A DNA stretch of 62,919 nucleotides from Zetaproteobacteria bacterium CG1_02_55_237. Its GTDB lineage: Bacteria > Pseudomonadota > Zetaproteobacteria > Mariprofundales > Mariprofundaceae. The stretch is from contig MNXA01000020.1 of assembly GCA_001871195.1 (NCBI GenBank), forward strand, positions 1 to 62,919. Reading direction: 5' to 3'. Positions 3,665 to 28,666 of the stretch are shown here, piece by piece (within the stretch, counting starts at the first letter, position 1; each line of letters starts with the position of its first letter). The notes beneath the pieces are model-generated. The model was given only the letters and a program-made list of their open reading frames with translations, did no database searches and had not been told where the DNA came from. The position numbers and the translations under genes are program-made.

Positions 3665-4979
<1,315 letters not shown>

Positions 4980-4987
<8 letters not shown>

Positions 4988-5936
4988 TGCACCCCTGAAT
5001 CTGCATCTTCCCGATCTGGATGCCGATGTGCTGCGCAATCTGTGCGGTGCGGATAATCGCGTGCTCAAGCGGCTTGAGGGCGAGTTCGGCGTGACCCTTT
5101 CCGGGCAGGCCGGGGCATGGCAGGTGGAAGGTGCGCGCGCCGCTGAAGCGGTGGCCGCGATGCAGGCCCTGCTGGCCTGGGCCAGGCGCGGACCGCTGGA
5201 GGATGTGCAGGTGGAAGGAATATTAAGGCACGGCAGGAATGAGATGCACCAGGCAGCGGAAAGCGCTGAAGGTGGTAACGTGATTGTCGCGGGCCGCCGG
5301 CGCATCCAGGGCAAAACACCGAATCAGAGGAAATATCTGGAGAGTATCCAGTCGCATGTGCTGACCATCGGCGTGGGCCCGGCCGGAACCGGCAAGACCT
5401 ATCTGGCCGTGGCCGCCGCTGTGGCTGCCATCGAATCGCATCAGGTGGAGCGCATGATTCTCACCCGGCCGGCGGTGGAAGCCGGCGAGCGGCTTGGTTT
5501 TCTGCCCGGTGACCTGCAGCAGAAGGTTGATCCCTATCTGCGCCCCCTGTTCGATGCACTGGCCGATATGATCGGTCTGGAAAAGATGGCCGCCATGATG
5601 GAGACCGGACGTATCGAGGTTGCCCCGCTGGCTTATATGCGCGGCCGCACGCTCAACGATGCCTTCGTGATTCTCGATGAGGCGCAGAATACGACGCGCG
5701 AGCAGATGAAGATGTTTCTCACCCGGCTGGGGTTTTCATCGCGCATGGTGGTGACCGGCGATACCACGCAGGTGGACCTTCCCGCCAAGCAGCACAGCGG
5801 GCTGTTGCATGCCCTGAAAGTGCTCGAGGGTGTGAACGATGTTGCCCTTTGCCGGCTGCAGGGGCGCGATGTAGTGCGTCACAAGCTGGTTGAGGATATT
5901 GTTGCGGCGTATGAACGCAGTGAGGCAGGGGAATAA
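4980..5936 (+). CDS. ybeZ: PhoH-like ATPase (YbeZ/PhoL)
   Basis: A 318-residue cytosolic P-loop ATPase that works with the YbeY endonuclease in rRNA processing and ribosome quality control. An N-terminal segment (1-100) precedes the PhoH domain with Walker A GPAGTGKT at 133-140 and Walker B FVILDEAQN at 229-237. A TGDTTQ sensor-like segment follows near 260. ATG 4980 overlaps the end of miaB, and ybeY follows after 28 bases. The miaB-ybeZ-ybeY-ybeX-lnt order is conserved in many proteobacteria. Confidence 0.95.
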
Positions 5937-5964
5937 TTGCAGTGAACAGGGATGAGAGGGGATC

Positions 5965-6447
5965 ATGATTGAAGTGATGCTGGATACAGGCATCGATGTG
6001 GCGCAGGTGCCCGGCGATGCAACTGTGCGGCATGCTGTGGCGGCCGCCTGTATGCAGGCGGGTATCAGCCGCAAGGTGATGCTGTGCGTGCGTTTTTCCG
6101 ATGATCAAACGATACGTGAGTTGAATAAACAGTGGCGCAACAAGGACAAGGCCACCGATGTGCTGTCCTTCCCGATGCAGGAGGGGCCGGAGATCAGTCT
6201 GGAAGAGTCGCTGGGCGATATCATCCTGTCCTGGCCCTTTGTAGTGCGCGAGGCGGAACGGCTGGGTTTGAGTCCGCAGCAGCATGCGCAGCACCTGATT
6301 GTGCACGGTGTGTTGCACCTGCTCGGCTTTGTGCATGGCGAGGATATGGATGCCGAGCGCATGCAGGCGCTGGAGCGCAAGGCGATGAAGCAGCTCGGCT
6401 TGCACGACCCCTATGAGGGGGATTACAACGGAGATGATGATGTCTGA
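5965..6447 (+). CDS. ybeY: Endoribonuclease YbeY
   Basis: A 160-residue zinc-dependent endoribonuclease that matures the 16S rRNA 3' end and takes part in late-stage 70S quality control. The signature H-G-x-L-H-L-x-G-x-x-H is intact (His114, His118, His124), preceded by DKATDVLSFP. ATG 5965 follows GAGAGGGGATC. The last codons overlap the start of the corC homologue, which suggests coupled translation. Confidence 0.95.
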   Translation: MIEVMLDTGIDVAQVPGDATVRHAVAAACMQAGISRKVMLCVRFSDDQTIRELNKQWRNKDKATDVLSFPMQEGPEISLEESLGDIILSWPFVVREAERLGLSPQQHAQHLIVHGVLHLLGFVHGEDMDAERMQALERKAMKQLGLHDPYEGDYNGDDDV

Positions 6448-7261
6448 CAGGTTTGGCGAGCGTTTCAGGAAGCGGCTGATTGAGCGGCTGCGCCCGGGGC
6501 GCGATGAGGAAGAATTGCTGGAGATTATCGGCAATGCCGAGGCGGTGCAGTCGGACGAGCATCGCGGCATGCTGCAAAATCTGGTCTGGTTCCGCGATGT
6601 GCGGGTGCGCGAGCTGATGGTGCCGCGCCTGGAAATCTTTGCCCTGGAAAAATCCACCTCGCTGGATGATGCGGTAGAGGCCATTACCGGCAAAAGTTTT
6701 TCCAAGCTGCCGATCTATAACGGCGATCTCGATCATATCATGGGCATGATTCATGCCTGGGATGTGTTTGCTGCCAAGATCAAGGGTGAGAAAAAGGAGC
6801 TGCAGGAATTCCTCAGCCCCTGTCTTTCCGCTCCTGAATCGGAACTGGTACTCGGCCTGCTGTCGCGCATGAAGCGCGAGGGCGTGCATATCGCCGTGGT
6901 GACCGATGAATACGGCGGCACCGGCGGCCTGGTTACCTTGTCCGATCTGCTTACCGAGATTGTCGGCTCCATGGATGAAGCGGGAGAAGCGGCCAGCGGC
7001 GAGGAATGCGCCCGCCAGCAGGACGGCAGCCTGATTGTGCATGGCCGGGCACATGTCGAGGATGTCGAGGATGCGCTGAACTACAAGTTGCCGGCGGGTG
7101 ATTACGATACCGTTGCCGGTCTTGTGGTCAGCATGTGCAATCGCATTCCGCGGCGCGGCGAACGTCTTGAACTGGCTGGCCTGAGTATCGATATTCTGGA
7201 GGCCGAACCGAGAAGGGTGCTGCGCATGCGTATCCATCCACTGACACATGCAACACTTTGA
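6440..7261 (+). CDS. ybeX: CBS-domain CorC/HlyC-type protein (YbeX)
   Basis: A 273-residue cytosolic protein with two CBS domains (about 60-180, containing ELMVPR and DEYGGTGGLVTLSDLLTEIVG) and a C-terminal CorC_HlyC domain. Relatives are linked to magnesium/cobalt efflux and, for YbeX, to ribosome metabolism; the exact role is uncertain. Three ATGs are clustered at 6434, 6437 and 6440. GGAG at 6430-6433 best fits 6440, which gives an ATGTCTGA overlap with the ybeY stop, the same geometry as miaB-phoH. Its end overlaps lnt by 14 bases. Confidence 0.9.
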   Translation: MSDRFGERFRKRLIERLRPGRDEEELLEIIGNAEAVQSDEHRGMLQNLVWFRDVRVRELMVPRLEIFALEKSTSLDDAVEAITGKSFSKLPIYNGDLDHIMGMIHAWDVFAAKIKGEKKELQEFLSPCLSAPESELVLGLLSRMKREGVHIAVVTDEYGGTGGLVTLSDLLTEIVGSMDEAGEAASGEECARQQDGSLIVHGRAHVEDVEDALNYKLPAGDYDTVAGLVVSMCNRIPRRGERLELAGLSIDILEAEPRRVLRMRIHPLTHATL

Positions 7262-8744
7262 GAACCCCTCGATTGCCGATTCCCGACCTGCTCTGAACCT
7301 GCGTCTGGCTGCAGCCCTGGCCTGCGGCGCAGCCATGCCGTTTGCCTACGCCCCCTATGATCTGAAATGGCTTGCCCTGCTGGCCCTGACCGGTTGGGTG
7401 TTACTGCTACTCGTCGGACGGGCATGGGCCACAGGGTATGCTTTCGGCCTTGGCTGGTTCGGTATCGGTGCGTGGTGGCTGGCCCCGACCCTGCATACCT
7501 TCGGTCCGCTGCCCTGGGGCTGGACCGTGCTGGCCGTGGCCTGCGTCGGTGCGGTACTCGCAGTCTTTCCTGCCCTGCTGGCATGGACGGCGCATCGTCT
7601 GGCCTTCGGCAAACAGGGTCGCATGCTGCTTCTCCTGCCGCTGCTGGCAGTCGGCGAGGAATGGCTGCGCGGCCATCTGTTCACGGGCCTTCCCTGGACT
7701 CCGCTGGGTAGTCTGCTGCTTGATACCCCGGCCATTGGCTGGGCCGCCATCGTCGGTGTTTACGGCGCAACACTGCTGCCGGTAGGCCTGGCTGCCGCGC
7801 TGGCGGCCATGCTGGCCGAGATTGGTTTGCGTTACGGTCTGGTGGCCTTTTCCCTGCTGCTAGTGGCCGGTTTTTTCGCTCCGCCGCCCTATCAGGCAGA
7901 AGGGCCGGCGCACCGTGTGGCGCTGGTGCAGGCAAACATTCCGCAAAGCTTGAAATGGGATGGCGACTTCCTCAACGACACCATGGCCCGCTATGCCCGG
8001 CTCAGTGCCGAAGCGGCACAAAAGGCGGAGATTATCGTCTGGCCGGAAGCGGCCGTGCCGCTGTTTCTCGAACGCGCTCCCGAGTGGCGGCAATGGCTGC
8101 TTGAGCAGATGCAGGGCTGGGACAGGCCGCTACTGTTCGGTGGCCTGAAGCTGGCGGCAGATGAAAGTGCGGCGCACAACGGATTGTTTTTATTCACCCC
8201 CGGCAGCACCGAGTTGCAGTTTGTCGGCAAGCGCCATCTGGTGCCATTCGGCGAATATGTACCGGAGTGGATTCCCTTTCTGCACAAATTCGTGCCCGGC
8301 ATCGCGGATTTCCGGCCGACTGCGGATAACGGCGTATTGCAGCCCGATGGGGGGCGATACGGCTCTCTGGTTTGCTATGAGGCAATTTTCCCCGAGCAGG
8401 CGCGACAGCGGGCGCAAACAGCGGCGGTGCTGATTAATGTGACCAACGATGCCTGGTACGGGCACACACCTGCCTCCTGGCAGCATATGCAGGCGGCACG
8501 CATGCGTGCTGTGGAAACCGGCCGCTATCTGCTGCGCGCCGCCAATACCGGGGTGTCGGCCATCATTGCCCCGGACGGGCAAGTGGTGAACAGCATGCCG
8601 TGGTTCGAAGAGGGCGTGGTGTATGGCGAGTATCGCGATGCCTCGGGGCAGACGCCTTACCTGCAGCGTGGCGATACCCCGCTGCTCTACCTGCTTATTC
8701 CCCTGTTGATTATCGTGCTTTATCCACGGAGGCTGACGCTATGA
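7248..8744 (+). CDS. lnt: Apolipoprotein N-acyltransferase
   Basis: Inner-membrane enzyme that adds the third acyl chain to lipoproteins. Of 498 residues, the first ~215 hold several hydrophobic membrane segments and the rest a nitrilase-like periplasmic domain. The catalytic triad is visible: Glu267 in VWPEAAVP, Lys328 in VGKRH and Cys376 in LVCYEAIFP, followed by NVTNDAWYG. A final hydrophobic helix closes the protein. It overlaps the CorC-type gene upstream, so it is translated from the same message. Confidence 0.95.
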   Translation: MQHFENPSIADSRPALNLRLAAALACGAAMPFAYAPYDLKWLALLALTGWVLLLLVGRAWATGYAFGLGWFGIGAWWLAPTLHTFGPLPWGWTVLAVACVGAVLAVFPALLAWTAHRLAFGKQGRMLLLLPLLAVGEEWLRGHLFTGLPWTPLGSLLLDTPAIGWAAIVGVYGATLLPVGLAAALAAMLAEIGLRYGLVAFSLLLVAGFFAPPPYQAEGPAHRVALVQANIPQSLKWDGDFLNDTMARYARLSAEAAQKAEIIVWPEAAVPLFLERAPEWRQWLLEQMQGWDRPLLFGGLKLAADESAAHNGLFLFTPGSTELQFVGKRHLVPFGEYVPEWIPFLHKFVPGIADFRPTADNGVLQPDGGRYGSLVCYEAIFPEQARQRAQTAAVLINVTNDAWYGHTPASWQHMQAARMRAVETGRYLLRAANTGVSAIIAPDGQVVNSMPWFEEGVVYGEYRDASGQTPYLQRGDTPLLYLLIPLLIIVLYPRRLTL

Positions 8745-8768
8745 GGGTGATGATATGGCGGTGATGCG

Positions 8769-9758
8769 ATGACCGGGGCGGTATGTGTAGTCGGTGCAGG
8801 CTCCTGGGGTACGGCCCTGGCCATGGTGCTGGCGCGCCACGGGCGCGAGGTGCGCCTGCTGGCCCGCGATGCATCGCGCGCAGCGCTTATGCAGCAGGCG
8901 CGCTGCAACAATGATTATCTGCCGGGCATCAACTTTCCGGCATCCCTGCGCGTAAGCGGATCGACGGAGGAGGCCCTGCATATGGCCGCTGCGGTGGTGG
9001 TGGCCACGCCCTGTTCGGCAGCGGAAGCGATTCTGCCGGTGATTGCCGCAGCAGTTGACGGGCCGGTGATTGCCGCCTTCAAGGGATTGGACCCGATGAC
9101 CTTCGAGCGTACTGACGAATTACTGCTGCGCTATGTCGGCCGGGAACGTGCTGCGATTCTTTCCGGCCCGTCGTTTGCGCTGGAAGTGGCGCGCGGCCAG
9201 CCCACCGCCATCACCATGGCCGCAGGCAGTGAAGAACTGGCGCGTCGGGCGGGGATCTTTTTCGACGATACGGCCTTTCGTATCTACAGCAGCGACGACA
9301 TGGCTGGCGTGGCACTGGGCGGTGCCTTGAAGAATGTGATTGCCATTGCCGCCGGTGTTGCCGCAGGGCTGAAGCTGGGGCATAACGCCGAGGCGGCAGT
9401 GGTAACCCGCGGCCTTGCCGAACTGATGCGCCTGGCCGGGGCAGCCGGGGCGCGGCGCGAAACCCTGATGGGGCTGTCCGGCCTGGGCGATCTGGTGCTG
9501 ACCTGCACCGGCGAATTATCGCGCAACCGGCGGCTGGGCATAGCAATGGCCGAGGGGCTCAAGCCCGATGCGGCGCAGGCGCGCATCGGGCAGGTGGCCG
9601 AAGGGGTGCGCACGGCAGCTGCGGCGCATGCCATGGCCAAAGCATTGCAGGTGGATGTGCCGCTGATGGAGTCGGTGCATCTGGTGCTGCAAAACAAGCT
9701 GGATGCGGCAGTTGCCGCAAAGCAGCTGATGGCGCGCCCTGAACGCAGCGAGTTCTAG
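8769..9758 (+). CDS. gpsA: Glycerol-3-phosphate dehydrogenase [NAD(P)+]
   Basis: Cytosolic enzyme that makes sn-glycerol 3-phosphate for phospholipids from dihydroxyacetone phosphate. The 329-residue protein starts with the Rossmann motif VGAGSWGTALA, has the FKGLDP and SGPSFA segments, and the catalytic-lysine region GGALKNVIAIAAG followed by GHNAEAAVVTRGL. The length is typical. It starts 24 bases after lnt on the same strand and probably belongs to the same transcript. Confidence 0.95.
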   Translation: MTGAVCVVGAGSWGTALAMVLARHGREVRLLARDASRAALMQQARCNNDYLPGINFPASLRVSGSTEEALHMAAAVVVATPCSAAEAILPVIAAAVDGPVIAAFKGLDPMTFERTDELLLRYVGRERAAILSGPSFALEVARGQPTAITMAAGSEELARRAGIFFDDTAFRIYSSDDMAGVALGGALKNVIAIAAGVAAGLKLGHNAEAAVVTRGLAELMRLAGAAGARRETLMGLSGLGDLVLTCTGELSRNRRLGIAMAEGLKPDAAQARIGQVAEGVRTAAAAHAMAKALQVDVPLMESVHLVLQNKLDAAVAAKQLMARPERSEF

Positions 9759-14622: not shown

Positions 14623-17052
14623 ATGACAGATGAAGTTCACGTTCCCGACGACATTACCGATGAAACCCTGATGGAAGAGGTGCAAAACGCCGGCCTGGTG
14701 GTGGCCAAAGAGATGCTGCCACCGCTGCTGAGCATCCTGCCATTATCCAACCGGCCGCTGTTTCCCGGGCTTATCGTCCCGCTGGTTTATGAGGGTGATG
14801 AGCTGATCAAGGAGTTCCGCGAGATAACGGCCGCGGAGGAGAAGTATGTCGGCCTGCTGCTGGTGCGTGATGAAGATGCATCTTTTACCACGGAGAATCT
14901 CTACGAGGTCGGGGTGGCGGCCAAGGTTATCAAGGCAGTGGAAATACCGGGCCACGGCCTGCATATTATTTTTGAATGTCTGGAACGTTTCCGGATACGC
15001 GATTTTGCCTCCGGTCCGCCGCATATCAAGGCGCGGGTGCAGTATCACGAGGAAACCAGCTACAAGGATAATGTCGAGCTGAAGGCTTATACCGTCGCCA
15101 TCATCAACACCATCAAGGACCTGCTCAAGCACAATCCGCTGCATGAGGAAGAGCTGCGCCTGTTTCTGTCGCGTTTCGGCCTGGATGAGCCCAACCATCT
15201 GGCCGATTTCGCCGCCAGTATGACCACGGCAGGGCGGGTGGAATTGCAGGAGGTGCTGGAAACATATCCTATCTTCGACCGCATGAAGAAGGTGATGAGC
15301 CTGCTCAACCGCGAACTGAACGTCAGCAAGATACAGAATCGCATCCGCAACAATATTGAGGAGCGCATATCCGAACAGCAGCGCAAGTATTTTCTCAACG
15401 AGCAACTGCACGAAATCCAGCGCGAACTCGGTATGGAGGAGGAAGCCAGCGATCAGGAAATAAGAAGGCTGGTGATGCGGGCCAAGAAGCTGAAGTTTTC
15501 CGATGAGGCCAAGGAGGTTTTCGACGAGGAGTTGCGCAAATTATCCATGCTGGACGAAAGCTCGCCGGAATTCGGTGTGGCACGCAATTATCTCGACTGG
15601 CTTACCGCCCTTCCCTGGGGACGCTTCGGCCGTGACCGCTACAATCTCAAGAGGGCCGCACGCGCACTGGATCGCGACCACTCGGGGCTTGAGGATGTGA
15701 AACAGCGCATTCTTGAATTTATCGCCATTGGTGGACGCAAGCAGGAGGTGGGCGGCTCGATCATCCTGTTTGTCGGTCCTCCGGGTGTTGGCAAGACCAG
15801 TATCGGGCGGGCCATTGCCGAGGCAGTCAACCGGCCGTTCTTCCGCTTTTCGGTTGGCGGCATGCGCGACGAGGCGGAAATCAAGGGCCACCGGCGCACC
15901 TATATCGGCGCCATGCCGGGCAAGATTATTCAGGCGTTGAAACAGCTGAAAGCGGCCAACCCGGTCATCATGATCGACGAGGTGGACAAGATCGGTAACG
16001 ATTTCCGCGGCGATCCGGCCTCGGCCCTGCTTGAAGTGCTCGATCCCGAACAGAATCGGGATTTCCTCGATCACTATATGGATGTGCGCTTCGATCTGTC
16101 GCGCGTGCTGTTTCTGCTCACCGCCAATCAACTGGATACTGTTCCCGCACCGCTGCTTGATCGCGCCGAGATTATCCGGCTGCCGGGCTATATTGCCGAT
16201 GAAAAGGTGGAGATTGCCCGTCGCCACCTGTGGCCGCGCCTGCTCAAGCAGAACGGGCTGACGCGCAGTGATATCAGTCTTGCATCTACCGCCCTGCGCC
16301 ATCTTGTCGAGGATTATGCGCGCGAGCCGGGCGTACGCCATCTGGAGCAGCTGCTGAAAAAGATTCAGCGCAAAGCGGCTATGCAGATGGCGCAGGAGGA
16401 GAATGCTCCGGCCCTGCCGCTGGTGGTGAACACGCGCAATCTGGACGACTTTGCCGGCAAGCCGAAATACCGCGAAAAGAAGCAGCGCTGTGGCGTGGGT
16501 ATGGCCACAGGTCTAGCCTGGACGGCCATGGGCGGGGTCACGCTTGATCTGGAGGCTGCCCGGGTTCACGAGGATCGACGCGGTCTGAAGTTGACCGGCC
16601 AGCTGGGCAAGGTGATGCAGGAATCGGCCGAAATCACCTATTCCTATATCACAGCCAGGTTGACGCGTTACGGAGCGCCAGCTGACTTTTTCGAGAAGGC
16701 CTTCGTGCACCTGCATGTGCCTGAGGGCGCGGTGCCCAAGGATGGACCATCGGCCGGTATCAGCATGGCCACGGTGCTGCTATCGCTGGCTCTGGGTAAA
16801 GCGCCGGCTGCGATGGCCATGACCGGCGAGTTGACGCTGACCGGCGAGGTTCTGGCTATCGGCGGCGAACGCGAGAAGCTGCTGGCAGCCAAACGATTGG
16901 GCATCAAAGAGGTGATTCTGCCGGCTGCCAACCAGGTGGATGTTGAGGAGCTTGCCCCCTCCATCATCGAAGGTGTGACGGTTCATTATGTGAAGCATTT
17001 CGATGAAGTGGCCAAGCTGATGTTCGGAATCCGGTCTCAGCGTCAGCCGTGA
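14623..17052 (+). CDS. lon: ATP-dependent protease Lon
   Basis: Cytosolic AAA+ serine protease of 809 residues. N-terminal LON substrate domain (from about 38, LLSILPLSNRPLFPG), AAA module with Walker A GPPGVGKT (385-392) and Walker B VIMIDEVDK, and a protease domain with catalytic Ser about 710 in PKDGPSAG and Lys about 752 in GGEREKLLAA. It degrades misfolded and regulatory proteins. The ATG lacks a ribosome site and sits at the predicted transcription start. The last four bases overlap the PilZ gene. Confidence 0.96.
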   Translation: MTDEVHVPDDITDETLMEEVQNAGLVVAKEMLPPLLSILPLSNRPLFPGLIVPLVYEGDELIKEFREITAAEEKYVGLLLVRDEDASFTTENLYEVGVAAKVIKAVEIPGHGLHIIFECLERFRIRDFASGPPHIKARVQYHEETSYKDNVELKAYTVAIINTIKDLLKHNPLHEEELRLFLSRFGLDEPNHLADFAASMTTAGRVELQEVLETYPIFDRMKKVMSLLNRELNVSKIQNRIRNNIEERISEQQRKYFLNEQLHEIQRELGMEEEASDQEIRRLVMRAKKLKFSDEAKEVFDEELRKLSMLDESSPEFGVARNYLDWLTALPWGRFGRDRYNLKRAARALDRDHSGLEDVKQRILEFIAIGGRKQEVGGSIILFVGPPGVGKTSIGRAIAEAVNRPFFRFSVGGMRDEAEIKGHRRTYIGAMPGKIIQALKQLKAANPVIMIDEVDKIGNDFRGDPASALLEVLDPEQNRDFLDHYMDVRFDLSRVLFLLTANQLDTVPAPLLDRAEIIRLPGYIADEKVEIARRHLWPRLLKQNGLTRSDISLASTALRHLVEDYAREPGVRHLEQLLKKIQRKAAMQMAQEENAPALPLVVNTRNLDDFAGKPKYREKKQRCGVGMATGLAWTAMGGVTLDLEAARVHEDRRGLKLTGQLGKVMQESAEITYSYITARLTRYGAPADFFEKAFVHLHVPEGAVPKDGPSAGISMATVLLSLALGKAPAAMAMTGELTLTGEVLAIGGEREKLLAAKRLGIKEVILPAANQVDVEELAPSIIEGVTVHYVKHFDEVAKLMFGIRSQRQP

Positions 17053-18074
17053 AACAGGGCATCGGCAAACAAACTCTGCGTAACAGGTTGCCCGCGGCAT
17101 CGGATGAAAGTCTGGATGCCTTATTGTCCATGCTGCGACAGGGGGGCGGGACATCAAGCGCACCATTTACAGCTCTTTTGCAGGAAGACTGTTCCCCGGC
17201 CATGATTCAGTCGACACTCAATGAGCACAGGGATGAACTGCTCGGCGACGGGAGTCTGAATGCAGACGAGGTGCAGGCGGCCATCAGGCAATGTGATCGC
17301 CTTGGCCTGCTGTTGCTGCAGGCAGTGGCCAAAGCCTGGCAGGCAAAGGTCAGCGAACTCGAATCCCGGCTGTCGCATGCCGGCTCTGAATTAGAGAAGG
17401 CTGCTACACGTTTACGCTGGGTCAGAGAAGGTGAGGTGACCCTTTATAATTACTTTCACGAGGTGCCGATCATGGCACGCGTCGCAGTTCATAACGTGCG
17501 TGAATCCGGCTTCGGGGTTGATCGCAGCAGCGATCTGGTGCGTGTCGTGGCAGCAGGCCAGCACGGTCGCTTTGCCCACATTCGTCTGCCTGATCTGGCT
17601 TCCTGCCTGCGTCTGGAGGTGGAAAGCGTGGTCGGAAAACATGTGAATTTCCGCTATGCAGGCGCTTTTGAAACGGCGAAGGAAAGGCGGCAACATATTC
17701 GCGTGCAGTGCGGAGATGTCCTGCATATGACCTTAAGCGGTGCATCAGGCCAAATCATAGAGACTGCCGTGCGGGACATTTCCGAATCGGGCTTCGGTCT
17801 GAACATCCTGCGCGGGGGAGAAGTTTTGAACGGCGAGACCTACGCTTTTGATCTAAGTCTCCAGACAGGCGAGTTGAAAGGTTCCTGTCAGGTGCGCTGG
17901 CTGGACAGGGCTGGAGGAAAAAGCACACCGGACAAGGCCGACCATGGGCGATGCGGTGTCGAAATTGATCTGAGGCCGGCGCTGCTGCGCAGGTTGCAAA
18001 TCGAGGTATCCCAGAGAAAGAAGCGGATACTTAATGAGCTGCGGGCCCTGGGCACGCCGGACAGCCTTTCTTAA
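17049..18074 (+). CDS. PilZ-domain protein coupled to lon
   Basis: A 341-residue cytosolic protein. Residues ~90-120 form a helical, possibly coiled-coil segment. A C-terminal PilZ-like domain starts with KERRQHIRVQC (the R-x3-R side of a cyclic-di-GMP site) and continues with AVRDISESGFGL, matching the D/N-x-S-x-x-G motif. A second, weaker copy of this pattern (VAVHNVRESGFGVDRSSD) lies upstream, suggesting a tandem PilZ or YcgR-N-like arrangement. It starts with GTG inside the lon stop (GTGA), so translation is coupled to lon. Confidence 0.75.
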   Translation: MKQGIGKQTLRNRLPAASDESLDALLSMLRQGGGTSSAPFTALLQEDCSPAMIQSTLNEHRDELLGDGSLNADEVQAAIRQCDRLGLLLLQAVAKAWQAKVSELESRLSHAGSELEKAATRLRWVREGEVTLYNYFHEVPIMARVAVHNVRESGFGVDRSSDLVRVVAAGQHGRFAHIRLPDLASCLRLEVESVVGKHVNFRYAGAFETAKERRQHIRVQCGDVLHMTLSGASGQIIETAVRDISESGFGLNILRGGEVLNGETYAFDLSLQTGELKGSCQVRWLDRAGGKSTPDKADHGRCGVEIDLRPALLRRLQIEVSQRKKRILNELRALGTPDSLS

Positions 18075-23567: not shown

Positions 23568-24002
23568 ATGAATTTCCGTGACAAGCCGCTTGATGAATTG
23601 AGTGATGATGAATGGGAGCTGTTGTGCGACGGATGCGGGCTTTGTTGCATGCACAAGTTTGAGGATGAGGACACGGGCGAGATGCTGTACACCAATGTCG
23701 CCTGCCGCTTATTCGATCCCGAGACCTGCCGCTGTACGGGTTATGCGCAAAGGGTCGAGCAGGTTCCCGAATGTATGCAAATCCGGCACTTCACGTCTGA
23801 GCAGTTCAGCTGGCTTCCGGCCAGCTGCGCCTATCGCCTGCGTTTTGAGGGTAAGCCATTGTTCGACTGGCATCCGCTGTTGTCCGGAGATATGGCGTCG
23901 GTGCATAGCGCGGGGATTTCGATGTTGGGCCGATGCGTACCCGAGTGTGAGGTGGATGAAGATGATCTGCCGCTGCACATTATCGATCCTGCCGACCATT
24001 AA
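23568..24002 (+). CDS. YcgN-family cysteine-cluster protein (UPF0260)
   Basis: A 144-residue cytosolic protein with an N-terminal CDGCGLCC metal-binding motif (residues ~22-29) and more conserved cysteines in VACRLFDPETCRC, PECMQ, PASCAYR and RCVPEC. This is the YkgJ/UPF0260 zinc- or iron-cluster fold; the function is not established. The length and full run of cysteines match YcgN. It converges with the HDOD operon. Confidence 0.85.
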   Translation: MNFRDKPLDELSDDEWELLCDGCGLCCMHKFEDEDTGEMLYTNVACRLFDPETCRCTGYAQRVEQVPECMQIRHFTSEQFSWLPASCAYRLRFEGKPLFDWHPLLSGDMASVHSAGISMLGRCVPECEVDEDDLPLHIIDPADH

Positions 24003-24041: not shown

Positions 24042-25013
24042 CTACATGTCCGCGGAATAGACCTTCCACAGGGCTTTGCCCACCTTCTGACTATCACTGA
24101 GCCCGCTTAGCGTGGTCTTGGGCAGGAGATACTCCCAGGAAGCATGCGGCAGTGTCTTGCAGGGGTTGCCGCCGGGGAACTTCAGATGGATGGCCAGCAG
24201 GTCGGCGAGGTAGACGGCGAACACCTCGCGGCGTACATCCTCAGGCACGTTTTCTGCCTCGTCGAAGGCTGGATCATGATGGTGGTGAATGGCCTTGATC
24301 AGTTGTTCAGGAAGTTCCCATGCCTGAGCCAGCATAACACCAGCCTCGATATGGGAGCAGCCGGCCACCTCGGACTCCCAGCGCAGAAAGCCGCGTTGTG
24401 TGAGGAGCTCCGTGGAGGGTTCGCTCTGTGATGTCTTGAGCACATGGTTAAGCAACATCCGCCCCAAATCGTGCAGAAGCCCCAGTGTTGCGGCTTCGCC
24501 TGCATGGCATTGCGGCACATCCCGGGCGATGATTTCGGCCAGCGCCGAGACGGCCATGGCATGTCGCCAGAGTCCCTGCTGCTCGAAGAATGCAGGCCTT
24601 TGAAATAGCGCGACATCCAGACAATGACGGGTGGCAACGCTGCGCACCAGATTGCTTCCCAGATGGGTTACAGCCCGTTCCACATCAACGATCGGTTTAA
24701 GTAGTCCGTAGGCGGGCGAATTGGCCACGCGAATGATCACGGCGGAGAGGGCTGTGTCCTGGGCGATGATACGGCCGATGTCGCGCAGTGATGCGTGTCC
24801 GGCAAAGGCTGCCTGTATTTCATGCCAGACCCATGATGGCTTGGGCATGCTGGCAAGGCTGTGATGCAGGTGCTCAAGGGCCTCCTTGTTGGCTGGCTCG
24901 GGCCTGATGCAGGGAGCGGCAACACCTTCTCCCTCATCCAGCGGGAGGTCGAAAGGCTGATGCGTGGCCTTCCCCTTTTGACCGTTCATGACTGCGCTTA
25001 TCCATGATCTCAT
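24042..25013 (-). CDS. HDOD-domain protein 1
   Basis: A 323-residue cytosolic protein. The HDOD domain spans about 50-260: LPKPSWVWHEIQAAF, ALSAVIIRVANSPAYG and LGLLHDLGRMLL, which keeps the His-Asp pair. HDOD proteins are non-enzymatic or weak HD relatives in two-component and cyclic-nucleotide signalling. ATG 25013 has AAGGGG upstream; 24989 is the alternative. It is the last gene of a four-gene minus-strand operon that starts with a GspE/PilB-like ATPase. Confidence 0.82.
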   Translation of the reverse strand: MRSWISAVMNGQKGKATHQPFDLPLDEGEGVAAPCIRPEPANKEALEHLHHSLASMPKPSWVWHEIQAAFAGHASLRDIGRIIAQDTALSAVIIRVANSPAYGLLKPIVDVERAVTHLGSNLVRSVATRHCLDVALFQRPAFFEQQGLWRHAMAVSALAEIIARDVPQCHAGEAATLGLLHDLGRMLLNHVLKTSQSEPSTELLTQRGFLRWESEVAGCSHIEAGVMLAQAWELPEQLIKAIHHHHDPAFDEAENVPEDVRREVFAVYLADLLAIHLKFPGGNPCKTLPHASWEYLLPKTTLSGLSDSQKVGKALWKVYSADM

Positions 25014-25049
25014 GCCTGTACCCCTTGCGATGGGTTCTGTCTGCGCAGT

Positions 25050-25907
25050 TCAACCGCCATTAAAGGCCTGCTGCATTTCTTCGAGGCTGTCATCCAGCTC
25101 GATTTCGATGGCTGCGATATGCGATTCGCTGATGCCCAGGCGCTTGATGGCACGACACTGCAGTGGATCGACATCCTCGGGCGCCGCATCAAGCAGCGGC
25201 TCATGGCCCAGATGCTGGGTGATGTAGCTGGCGGCATCGACAAAATCAATCAGCTTGTCGCGCGGCCGGTCATCCGATTCGATGCCCTGATGCAGGATTA
25301 CCTGTGAGAAGATGTCGGGAAGGTTCCAGTAGTGGAACAGGCGCGCCCCCATTTCGCGGTGTAGTTTTTGCAATATCTCGATGCGCCGGCTTGTATCGCA
25401 GGCCATCATGTCGTCCGGTACGGCACAAATGACGGTCGGCACGCCAATCTTGTGCAACAGGCCGGTGATAAAAGCATCTTCCGGAGACACCTGCGGGATC
25501 ATCTGGGCCAGATGCTGGGCAGCCACGGCGACGGCCAGCGAATGGTTGAAGTTGCGCCGGATGGCATCCTGCAACTCGGGTTGCTTCACCTGCATATACA
25601 GGCTGCTGGCAATAGCCATCAGCAATTGCAGCACCTGGCGGGAACCGATGCGCTGGATGGCCATAGGCAGGTTGCGTATCTCGTTGCGCGAGGGATTGAA
25701 GCGGGGGCTATTGGCAATGCGCAACACGGCGGCGGAGAAGGCGGGGCTCTCGGCAATGGCTTTAGCGATGTCGGTGCTTCCCTTGCGATCGTCGGCGATG
25801 ATGTTGCGCACCTTCAGCACGGCATCTGGCAACACAGGCAGCCGGGCTTCCCCGGCATTGAATTTCTGCCTTATGCGGGCGGCGATTTCGTCAGCATTTG
25901 CACTCAT
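25050..25907 (-). CDS. HDOD-domain protein 2
   Basis: A 285-residue HDOD protein, clearly paralogous to the next gene upstream. Shared blocks include LPDAVLKV, a VLRIANSP-type helix, AIQRIGS, HREMGARLFHYWNLP and GIESDDRPR. The position of the HD motif reads LLHKIG, so the Asp is replaced by Lys, arguing against hydrolase activity and for a scaffold role. It follows HDOD protein 3 by 9 bases. Confidence 0.82.
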   Translation of the reverse strand: MSANADEIAARIRQKFNAGEARLPVLPDAVLKVRNIIADDRKGSTDIAKAIAESPAFSAAVLRIANSPRFNPSRNEIRNLPMAIQRIGSRQVLQLLMAIASSLYMQVKQPELQDAIRRNFNHSLAVAVAAQHLAQMIPQVSPEDAFITGLLHKIGVPTVICAVPDDMMACDTSRRIEILQKLHREMGARLFHYWNLPDIFSQVILHQGIESDDRPRDKLIDFVDAASYITQHLGHEPLLDAAPEDVDPLQCRAIKRLGISESHIAAIEIELDDSLEEMQQAFNGG

Positions 25908-25916
25908 TTTACCACC

Positions 25917-26750
25917 TCATGCGGCAAAGACCTGTCGCAACGTTTCAATCTGGTCTTCGATATCCATGACAATACCGGTCAACTGGGTTTGGGTCAGGCG
26001 CAGCCGCTGTGCAGCCGGATGTGCGGCAATGTTCGCCTCTGTGTCATTCTCCAGGCTTTGTACGATGGCATCGGCGACATCAACGCAGTCGAGCATGCTC
26101 AGCCGCGGTCGATCGGAGGATTCAATGCCATGGTGCTGTGCTACAAGAATAAAATCTTCCGGTAGCGACCACTTATGCAGCAGGCGCGCGCCCATTTCGC
26201 GGTGAAACATGGTGATGAGGTTTTCGCGTTCGACGGAGGATGCTTTTTGCAGCTCATCGGGGACGAGTATCACCAGCACATCGATTCCCTGATCGTGCAG
26301 CAATGCGGCCATGAACGTGTCGGCTGGATTGGCCGCCCGGCTGATGTGTGCGACCTGCTCTGCTGCTGCCGCTGCGAGCAGGGCATGATCCTGGGTGGCC
26401 TGGATGATTTTGCGCAGTTCGGGCTGACGGACATTGAAAAGCATGCGACTGGTCACGCTGATCAGCAGTTTCAGTATGGAATTGGTGCCGATGCGCTGGA
26501 TGGCCGTGTTCATACTGCGAATCTCGTGGCCGGTGTTGTTGAAGTAGCTGCTGTTGGCCATGCGCATCACCACCGTGGCAAAGGCACTGTCCTGGGTCAG
26601 GATGTCCGAGATATCCTTAATCGCATAGTTATCGCTGGCCATCAGTTGCTGTACCTTGATAACGGTGTCGGGCAGCGAAGGGAGTTTGATATTGTCTCCA
26701 TTCAGCTTCTTCCTTATTTCTTGCGCCAATCCTTGCTGGATACCGGTCAT
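25917..26750 (-). CDS. HDOD-domain protein 3
   Basis: A 277-residue HDOD protein: LPSLPDTVIKVQQL (near 20), FATVVMRMANSSYF, TAIQRIGTNSI, ALLHDQG and HREMGARLLHKWSLPEDF. It is a tandem duplicate of HDOD protein 2. Its ATG overlaps the TGA of the upstream GspE/PilB-like gene by four bases, so the two are translationally coupled and probably work together. Confidence 0.82.
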   Translation of the reverse strand: MTGIQQGLAQEIRKKLNGDNIKLPSLPDTVIKVQQLMASDNYAIKDISDILTQDSAFATVVMRMANSSYFNNTGHEIRSMNTAIQRIGTNSILKLLISVTSRMLFNVRQPELRKIIQATQDHALLAAAAAEQVAHISRAANPADTFMAALLHDQGIDVLVILVPDELQKASSVERENLITMFHREMGARLLHKWSLPEDFILVAQHHGIESSDRPRLSMLDCVDVADAIVQSLENDTEANIAAHPAAQRLRLTQTQLTGIVMDIEDQIETLRQVFAA

Positions 26751-28666
26751 GATTCATCTTCCTCCATAAGCCGGACCACTTCGTTGACCGTACGATTCGA
26801 ATGCGAACGCGGCGTAATGCGATACACCTCTTCAACGGTTGTCAGGCCCTGCAGCACCTTGTACATACCGTTTTCCATCAGCGACACAAGTTTGGTGGTG
26901 GCGCAACTGATATCGCGCACCTCGTGTGATGTTTTGCGCGCCAGAATTGCCTCGCGCACCGGGTCATTGAGCACCAGCAGCTCGTGCAGGCCGGTGCGAC
27001 CAAAATAGCCAGTGCCGTTGCAGGTTGCACAGCCGATGCCGCGATGGAAGGCATGGTTGTTCAGGGTCTCCTTATCGAGCCCTATCATGCGGGCGATGCG
27101 CGGGTCCGGCAGATAGGCCTGCCGGCAGTCGGGGCAGATGGTCCGTGCCAGACGCTGGGCCAGAATGCTGACCACGGTGGAGGAAATCAAAAAGGTTTCG
27201 ATACCCATATCGATCAGGCGAAGCAGGCCTCCGATGCTGTCCTCGGTGTGGAAGGTGGTTAGTACCTTGTGGCCGGTCAGCGCCGCCTGCACGGAGACCT
27301 CGGCCGAGAGTTTGTCGCGAATCTCGCCAAGCACAATGATATCCGGATCCTGCCGCATAATGGCTTTGAGTGAGGCGTTGAAGTCCCGCCCGGCCTTCAC
27401 ATCCACCGAGCACTGCATGATGCCGTCGATGGCAAACTCCACCGGATCTTCGAGGGTGATGATCTTGGTGTTGGGCTGATTCAGGTAATCCACACCGGCA
27501 TACAATGTGGTGGTCTTGCCGCTGCCTGTCGGGCCGGTGATGATAATAACCCCGGTTGGCACCTCCAGCGCTTCGTACTTGAAACGGTTCAGCATGGCTT
27601 TGTTCATCTGCAGCTGTTCCAGCGATTTCAGACCGCCGTCACGGCGCAGAATACGCATCACCAGATTCTCGCCATACAGCGTGACATAGGTGGAAACGCG
27701 AAAATCTACCTTCACATGCCCAATCTCCCGGAACATGCGCCCATCCTGGTGGCGGCGGGTATCGGAGATATCCAGCTCGGACATCACCTTGATGCTGGAG
27801 ATCACCCGTAGAGCCAGATCGGGGTGCATCTCTGTATGATTGATCAGCACGCCATCCATGCGCAGGCGAATCCTCACCCGGTCGGAAAGGGGCTCGATGT
27901 GGATGTCACTGGCCCGGTTGCGGACGGCGGACAGGAAAATCGCATCCACGATATCCAGTACGCTGTCGCGGTTATCCTTCGCAACGCGAGAGCCGGCACC
28001 CTGTGCCAGGCGGTTAATCAGGGTTTCGATCACCGAGCGCACACCGATGGCGATGACCGCTTTCTTTTCCGTGCGCTCCTCAATCTCGCGGATGGCGGTG
28101 CTGTTCAGCGGGTCAGCACAGATGACGGAAACAGTGCGCACACCCTCCTCGTAAGGGATAATCAGGTTCTTCTTCAGGAATGAGTGGCCAAGCTTCTTTA
28201 CCACTTCGAGGTTGAGCATTTCCAGATCGATATGCATCAGCGGCAGCGCGAGCTGGTCGGAAAGCCCCTGTGCCAGCTCCCGTTCGTTAATGAATTCACG
28301 CTCCAGCATAATCTCGCCGATGCGCTTGCCGGGCTTGCGCTTCATGATGGCGATGGCCTCAAGCAGTTGCTCCAGGGTGATATGACCCATTTCGCATTCC
28401 AGGTCACCGAAACGGAAATTCTTGCCGTGTTTGCGCAGAATGCGCCGGTGGTCGTCTTCGCTGATCAGGTTCAGCTCAAGCAAGATGGAGGAAAGTAGTT
28501 TGTTATTACCGAGGCGTTTCTGCACGCGGCAGGCCTTGTCCAGCTCGCGCTCACCAATGATGCCTTCCTGCAACAGGATGCGTGCAAATACCCCGCCGGG
28601 CACATCATCAAGCTGGGTGTAGGCATCCGTCGTATGCGTCGGTAGCCGTGAAACGGGGGTCGACAT
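26747..28666 (-). CDS. GspE/PilB-like secretion ATPase with MshEN domains
   Basis: A 639-residue hexameric ATPase that would power a type II secretion or type IV pilus machine. Residues ~25-150 carry two MshEN-like repeats ([20 protein letters not shown], then a [19 protein letters not shown] block), a fold that binds cyclic-di-GMP or the platform protein in relatives. The motor domain has Walker [10 protein letters not shown] (378-386), the Asp box TLEDPVEF, Walker [11 protein letters not shown], a His box and the zinc pairs CPDC and CATC. No pilin, platform or secretin gene is nearby. Confidence 0.9.

Follow-up and report, generated by a model that had tools for sequence, protein, structure and literature searches.

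An orphan extension-class ATPase co-inherited with an HDOD protein in the Mariprofundaceae: a candidate accessory type IV pilus motor

What does an ATPase of the GspE/PilB class do in an operon with three HDOD genes and away from any pilus or secretion locus, and do all three HDOD proteins belong to the same module? The window, a stretch of 62,919 nucleotides (contig C19) from a genome of the Mariprofundaceae, Zetaproteobacteria (2.33 Mb, 54 contigs), carries such an operon on its minus strand at 24042-28666, and a check of the open reading frames gave the order ATPase, HDOD1, HDOD2 and HDOD3 (Table 1). The ATPase gene overlaps HDOD1 by 4 bp, HDOD1 and HDOD2 are 9 bp apart, HDOD2 and HDOD3 are 36 bp apart, and the operon is flanked by one convergent gene (end at 24002) and one divergent gene. 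All three HDOD proteins scored above the PF08668 gathering cut-off of 22.9 bits (123, 131 and 142 bits for HDOD1, HDOD2 and HDOD3 respectively). The reading frames and domains of this four-gene operon, its 4-bp overlap included, are exactly those claimed by a first-pass annotation made from the sequence alone. Promoter and terminator scans gave a signal no better than chance.

Table 1. Positions in the window of the operon genes, the ATPase subdomains and the HD position of HDOD2
Feature	Position	Strand	Description
Orphan GspE/PilB-class ATPase (operon gene 1)	26747..28666	-	639 aa; T2SSE 373 bits, MshEN 45 bits
HDOD1	25917..26750	-	277 aa; fast-evolving duplicate of the pair HDOD, LLHD kept (tree)
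HDOD2	25050..25907	-	285 aa; orthologue of the single ATPase-paired HDOD across the family; HDOD fold
HDOD3	24042..25013	-	323 aa; different HDOD subfamily
First MshEN-type four-helix bundle (aa 26-80)	28427..28591	-	AlphaFold2 model; degenerate motif, no Gly at position 3
Second MshEN-type four-helix bundle (aa 85-138)	28253..28414	-	NF053729, 59.7 bits; fold match to MshE (5htl)
MshEN C-subdomain (aa 139-224)	27995..28252	-	PF05157 at aa 139-224; alpha/beta fold in the model
T2SSE ATPase domain (aa 231-615)	26822..27976	-	Walker A, Asp box, Walker B, His box, tetracysteine
His-Lys (LLHK) at the HD position of HDOD2 (H152-K153)	25449..25454	-	Sequence

No pilin, platform or secretin gene was found on contig C19, in agreement with the earlier statement that none lies nearby, and the machines themselves are encoded elsewhere in the genome: a complete type II secretion system (T2SS) with its gspE on C8, and a type IVa pilus (T4aP) with a separate pilB-pilC on C3. 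Secretin genes lie on C8 and C51, and pilin genes on C8, C51, C29 and C13.

A profile of the ATPase N-terminus recovered orthologues in 33 of the 78 genomes of the order, a count that leaves out four further matches (E 1e-26 to 1e-33) to a longer ATPase family, and an HDOD profile gave strong matches to the paired HDOD in 32 of the 74 genomes of the family. The two genome lists were identical except for one genome (G009), where the ATPase runs off a contig end, and no genome in these searches (78 of the order, 74 of the family) had a pair-type HDOD without the ATPase. Moreover, most loci had a spacing of -4 bp between the two genes, and almost everywhere it fell between -17 and +1 bp; the wider overlaps seen at three loci are probably due to uncertain start codons or faulty assembly. 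Thus same-genome co-occurrence and spacing support the view that an HDOD protein and an orphan secretion or pilus motor form one heritable, tightly coupled unit. The conserved unit is the ATPase plus one HDOD (hereafter the pair): HDOD copy number varies between loci, with at least one invariably there, and in a congener (G068) an 84-bp gap takes the place of the missing HDOD1. The co-occurrence that the first-pass annotation had proposed to look for is therefore present for the ATPase and one HDOD in the same genomes, and its HDOD-motor module survives as this coupled unit; its three-HDOD composition does not, being local to the genus of the window. The trio was accordingly rejected as a conserved unit, a single HDOD being what is kept across the family.

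The gene tree, in which long-branch placement is uncertain, indicated where the additional copies came from. HDOD2, on short branches, corresponds to the lone HDOD of other genera; HDOD1, a duplicate with a long branch, is present only in the window's genome and one congener (G067); and HDOD3 falls in another HDOD group, nearer to an HDOD at the flagellar locus of the same genome and to an HDOD adjoining the pair in some Mariprofundus. HDOD2 and HDOD3 were found in all four genomes of the genus, with HDOD3 at the same place. The HDOD set of this genus thus consists of two duplicates plus one unrelated HDOD, and the two had indeed been taken for tandem paralogs (~37% identity between HDOD1 and HDOD2). 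The loss of an Asp from the HD pair had likewise been noticed and is real in HDOD2, but it is nothing special, since this position drifts among orthologues of the pair HDOD (HD, HK, FD or YN); HDOD1 and HDOD3 read LLHD, and in some orthologues of the pair HDOD the first His is replaced by Asp. The H...HD...D metal site conserved in catalytic HD and HD-GYP phosphodiesterases is not kept in the pair HDOD, and because the HD pair varies among orthologues, the protein is unlikely, judging by its residues, to be a metal-dependent hydrolase. The HDOD2 model (pLDDT 90.7) matched HDOD structures, with SadB (9qzk) among the best. Further HDOD genes lie on contig C26 of the genome (L083:5897-6928, L084:8436-11210), one beside flagellar genes, with one GGDEF fusion and one EAL fusion near chemotaxis genes.

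The pair is kept together in at least six genomic contexts (neighbouring genes were named by inspection): i) downstream of smc in three genera (g1, g12 and g8); ii) adjoining mreBCD-pbp-rodA in genus g4; iii) near topA/der in genus g6; iv) by tyrS or by dnaE/coaD at other loci; and v) adjoining a rhodanese gene in the window. In no locus examined did the pair lie inside a pilus or T2SS cluster, pilC was missing from the pair loci, and no MSHA locus with MshG and pilins surrounded the ATPase of the pair in the loci examined. The arrangement that would have undone the original proposal, an ATPase within a complete pilus or T2SS locus with the HDODs as variable passengers, was thus looked for and not found. 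The operon seems to have been relocated in the window's genome, given that smc does not adjoin the ATPase there, unlike in congeners, and that the miaB-gpsA block (window 3701-9758), which directly follows the pair in some Mariprofundus, lies ~14-20 kb away. Two other loci have additional neighbours. In one genome (G006, L051:5530-6935), two genes lie convergent to the pair, one for a pilin-like protein that carries an N-methylation motif and one for a protein of 226 aa without a Pfam family; in another (G016, L052:1443-2297), a second, divergent pair-type HDOD lies ~2 kb downstream and is an independent additional copy outside the genus of the window.

Across a phylum sample of 398 genomes, ~78 of them from the same order, the profile of the ATPase N-terminus found no orthologue in the ~320 genomes outside the order. 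The closest outside matches were mostly MshE in MSHA loci with MshG and pilins, the rest being longer orphan ATPases; no HDOD adjoined any of those examined, and the HDOD at locus L144 had no adjoining ATPase. In a tree of ATPase domains, the ATPases of the pairs grouped together with full support, and their long branch was separate from both MshE and the longer orphan ATPases.

By score, this ATPase belongs to none of the families PilB, GspE and TfpB: it reached 437 bits against the PilB equivalog TIGR02538 (cut-off 675.65), 459 bits against the GspE equivalog TIGR02533 (cut-off 630.25; its gene is not in a gsp locus) and 369 bits against TfpB NF053534 (cut-off 850). The Walker A, Asp box, Walker B, His box and tetracysteine site are conserved in 28/28 aligned orthologues. 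The N-terminus is predicted (AlphaFold2, pLDDT 89.5) to form two successive helical bundles and one alpha/beta subdomain, and the best PDB matches of this model were MshE with c-di-GMP, the Xanthomonas PilB N-domain with PilZ, and Thermus PilF; the MshEN fold was recovered against 5htl (TM-score 0.8 on the target, E 4e-07) and by PF05157.

Such an N-terminus raises the possibility of a c-di-GMP-sensing, MshE-like motor, with the HDOD as a secondary helper or nucleotide handler. The MshE-like fold, the score of the second bundle against the c-di-GMP motif domain NF053729 (59.7 bits at aa 85-138, cut-off 38) and the largely kept motif II of that bundle (7-9/11 across orthologues, 8/11 in the window) speak for it. 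On the other hand, with the published motif in its extended form (PMC11731258) as the reference, motif I of the second bundle reached 5-9/11 across orthologues (mean 6.3; 5/11 in the window), its last Leu and Gln missing in most, and the motifs of the first bundle averaged 5-6/11 and lacked the Gly, whereas MshE controls scored 9-11/11 in both motifs. Two 24-residue motifs joined by a 5-residue linker were also absent, the linker in the window protein being 6 residues long. Since the motif pair is degenerate and GSPII-A of PilF, in which a good motif is combined with a poor one, fails to bind c-di-GMP (PMC11731258), direct c-di-GMP sensing by this N-terminus appears doubtful; the second messenger which the first-pass annotation had acting through MshEN is weakened accordingly, and we regard a c-di-GMP-sensing motor as unlikely.

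Which machine the ATPase would serve was approached through the platform proteins. In four pair-bearing genomes of ~99% completeness (G016, G046, G051 and G052, G046 being M. ferrooxydans PV-1), PilC, encoded in a pilB-pilC locus, is the sole T2SSF protein, so that if the orphan ATPase acts on any canonical platform there, this would have to be PilC, a link that depends on the absence of another platform from draft or incomplete assemblies. A second motor for the T2SS is very improbable and disfavoured by these genomes, although the window's genome has a T2SS and the catalytic domain is about equally close to GspE and PilB (NCBIfam, 459 vs 437 bits). The pair could also be a signalling complex without a mechanical role, for instance in polysaccharide or motility control. 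Its orphan location would suit this, as would the action of HDOD proteins elsewhere in the control of motility and attachment (PMC6543031) and the proposal that Myxococcus PilB is a signalling protein in exopolysaccharide regulation (PMC5544727); but each intact orthologue retains all its catalytic and zinc-site motifs, as expected of a working motor, which makes a purely signalling role quite unlikely. Genes of one operon can, moreover, be lost jointly without any functional link, yet mere neighbourhood is scarcely credible for two genes that stay coupled in so many contexts and of which the pair-type HDOD occurred in no searched genome without the ATPase.

The operon is best read as encoding an accessory extension-class motor of the T4aP together with a dedicated HDOD regulator of that motor, a reading to which we assign a probability of about one half. 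The constant co-inheritance of a stand-alone motor with a directly coupled HDOD points to an accessory motor that is undescribed and under separate regulation, and whose most likely target is the ordinary type IV pilus of the cell. In such a scheme, the ATPase would assemble into a hexamer and engage the PilC platform of the ordinary T4aP, either alongside PilB or in its place, as a second, conditional extension-class motor, and the HDOD would bind the MshEN-like N-terminal domains as an adaptor, recruiting or switching the motor; in the genus of the window, one duplication and one recruited HDOD may have broadened the HDOD input. We infer the ATPase-HDOD contact, the action on PilC, the direction of control and the signal. 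The logic would parallel that of Xanthomonas, where a PilB without a c-di-GMP site is governed through the PilZ-FimX adaptor (PMC8389850), TfpB indicates that one pilus can be served by two extension ATPases (PMC11656802), and SadB is a precedent for c-di-GMP binding by a protein with an HDOD domain (PMC6543031). What counts against a shared pilus is that an extension ATPase normally works for a single machine (PMC11656802). That the HDOD is a dedicated adaptor and switch of a second T4aP motor, in a lineage-specific module, we put forward tentatively.

The dispensability of the pair also counts against this reading: a T4aP occurs without the pair in half of the family's near-complete genomes, and the ATPase is lost in M. 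ferrooxydans PV-1. In PV-1 (G046:C4, L062:9296-12522), a Mutator-family insertion sequence splits the ATPase gene just before the Walker A motif, with transposase end repeats GAGGCTGTAAAT and ATTTACAGGCTC and an 8-bp target duplication, GGGGGTGA; the HDOD downstream is intact. The ATPase is thus dispensable in PV-1. Because PV-1 is one of the classical stalk formers (PMC3179512, PMC8250860), a correct assembly would mean that stalks do not require the motor. A link to twisted stalks, considered because the pair occurs in several cultured strains that form stalks and is missing from two single-contig genomes, is disfavoured by this natural insertion, and the sfz stalk paper does not mention HDOD.

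Several known systems share parts of this arrangement. TfpB of Acinetobacter baylyi (PMC11656802) is likewise a phylogenetically distinct second extension-class ATPase in a PilB-bearing genome and has been proposed to share its pilus with PilB, but it has no described co-encoded HDOD, and the orphan ATPase falls well below its family cut-off. MshE of Vibrio cholerae (PMC5013675) has the same overall architecture and N-domain fold; unlike MshE, the orphan ATPase has an extra four-helix bundle and a degenerate motif I, lies outside an MSHA locus and is coupled to an HDOD. The PilB-PilZ-FimX system of Xanthomonas citri (PMC8389850; match to 7lko/7lkm) shares a motor with an MshEN-like N-domain lacking the c-di-GMP residues, but the adaptor there is PilZ plus FimX, not HDOD, and PilB lies in a pilus locus. 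PilF of Thermus thermophilus (PMC11731258) also places multiple MshEN-type modules ahead of its ATPase domain, and some of these modules do not bind c-di-GMP, but it is the main pilus motor, with three complete GSPII domains and no HDOD partner. SadB, HdpA and GsmR (PMC6543031) have the HDOD domain in common with the pair, but there is no report of any of them being encoded together with a pilus or secretion motor as its partner, and SadB carries an added YbaK-like domain. Full-text literature searches on HDOD with PilB, GspE, type IV pili, pilus or twitching, covering few subscription papers, named no such system, as the first-pass annotation had supposed for this composition, and a review of PilB cofactors does not mention HDOD. 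Thus the parts are already known, and the HDOD-motor pairing appears new.

HDOD proteins are widespread and their mechanism is not established (PMC6543031); a strictly co-inherited ATPase offers a testable direct HDOD target, no motor partner having been found described. If the adaptor reading is right, the HDOD would be the first with a direct molecular target and would represent a kind of pilus-motor cofactor that differs from PilZ, from FimX and from direct control by c-di-GMP through MshEN. The pair also bears on the question, raised in PMC11656802, of what leads some bacteria to retain multiple pilus extension-class ATPases, in marine iron-oxidising hosts for which surface life is ecologically important.

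Other motor and signalling genes were observed alongside. A second orphan ATPase family of 750-860 aa has an extra N-terminal region before MshEN and T2SSE; it is represented on contig C10 of the window's genome (L081:8345-10612) and at loci L156, L157, L161 and L162, had no HDOD partner in the loci examined, and occurs also in genomes without the ATPase-HDOD pair (e.g. G043). A PilZ-domain protein (28.5 bits) is encoded at 17049-18074 of the window, ~6 kb from the operon, and contig C41 of the same genome (L082:8027-11361) carries three PilT/PilU-type ATPase genes in tandem, where two are usual.
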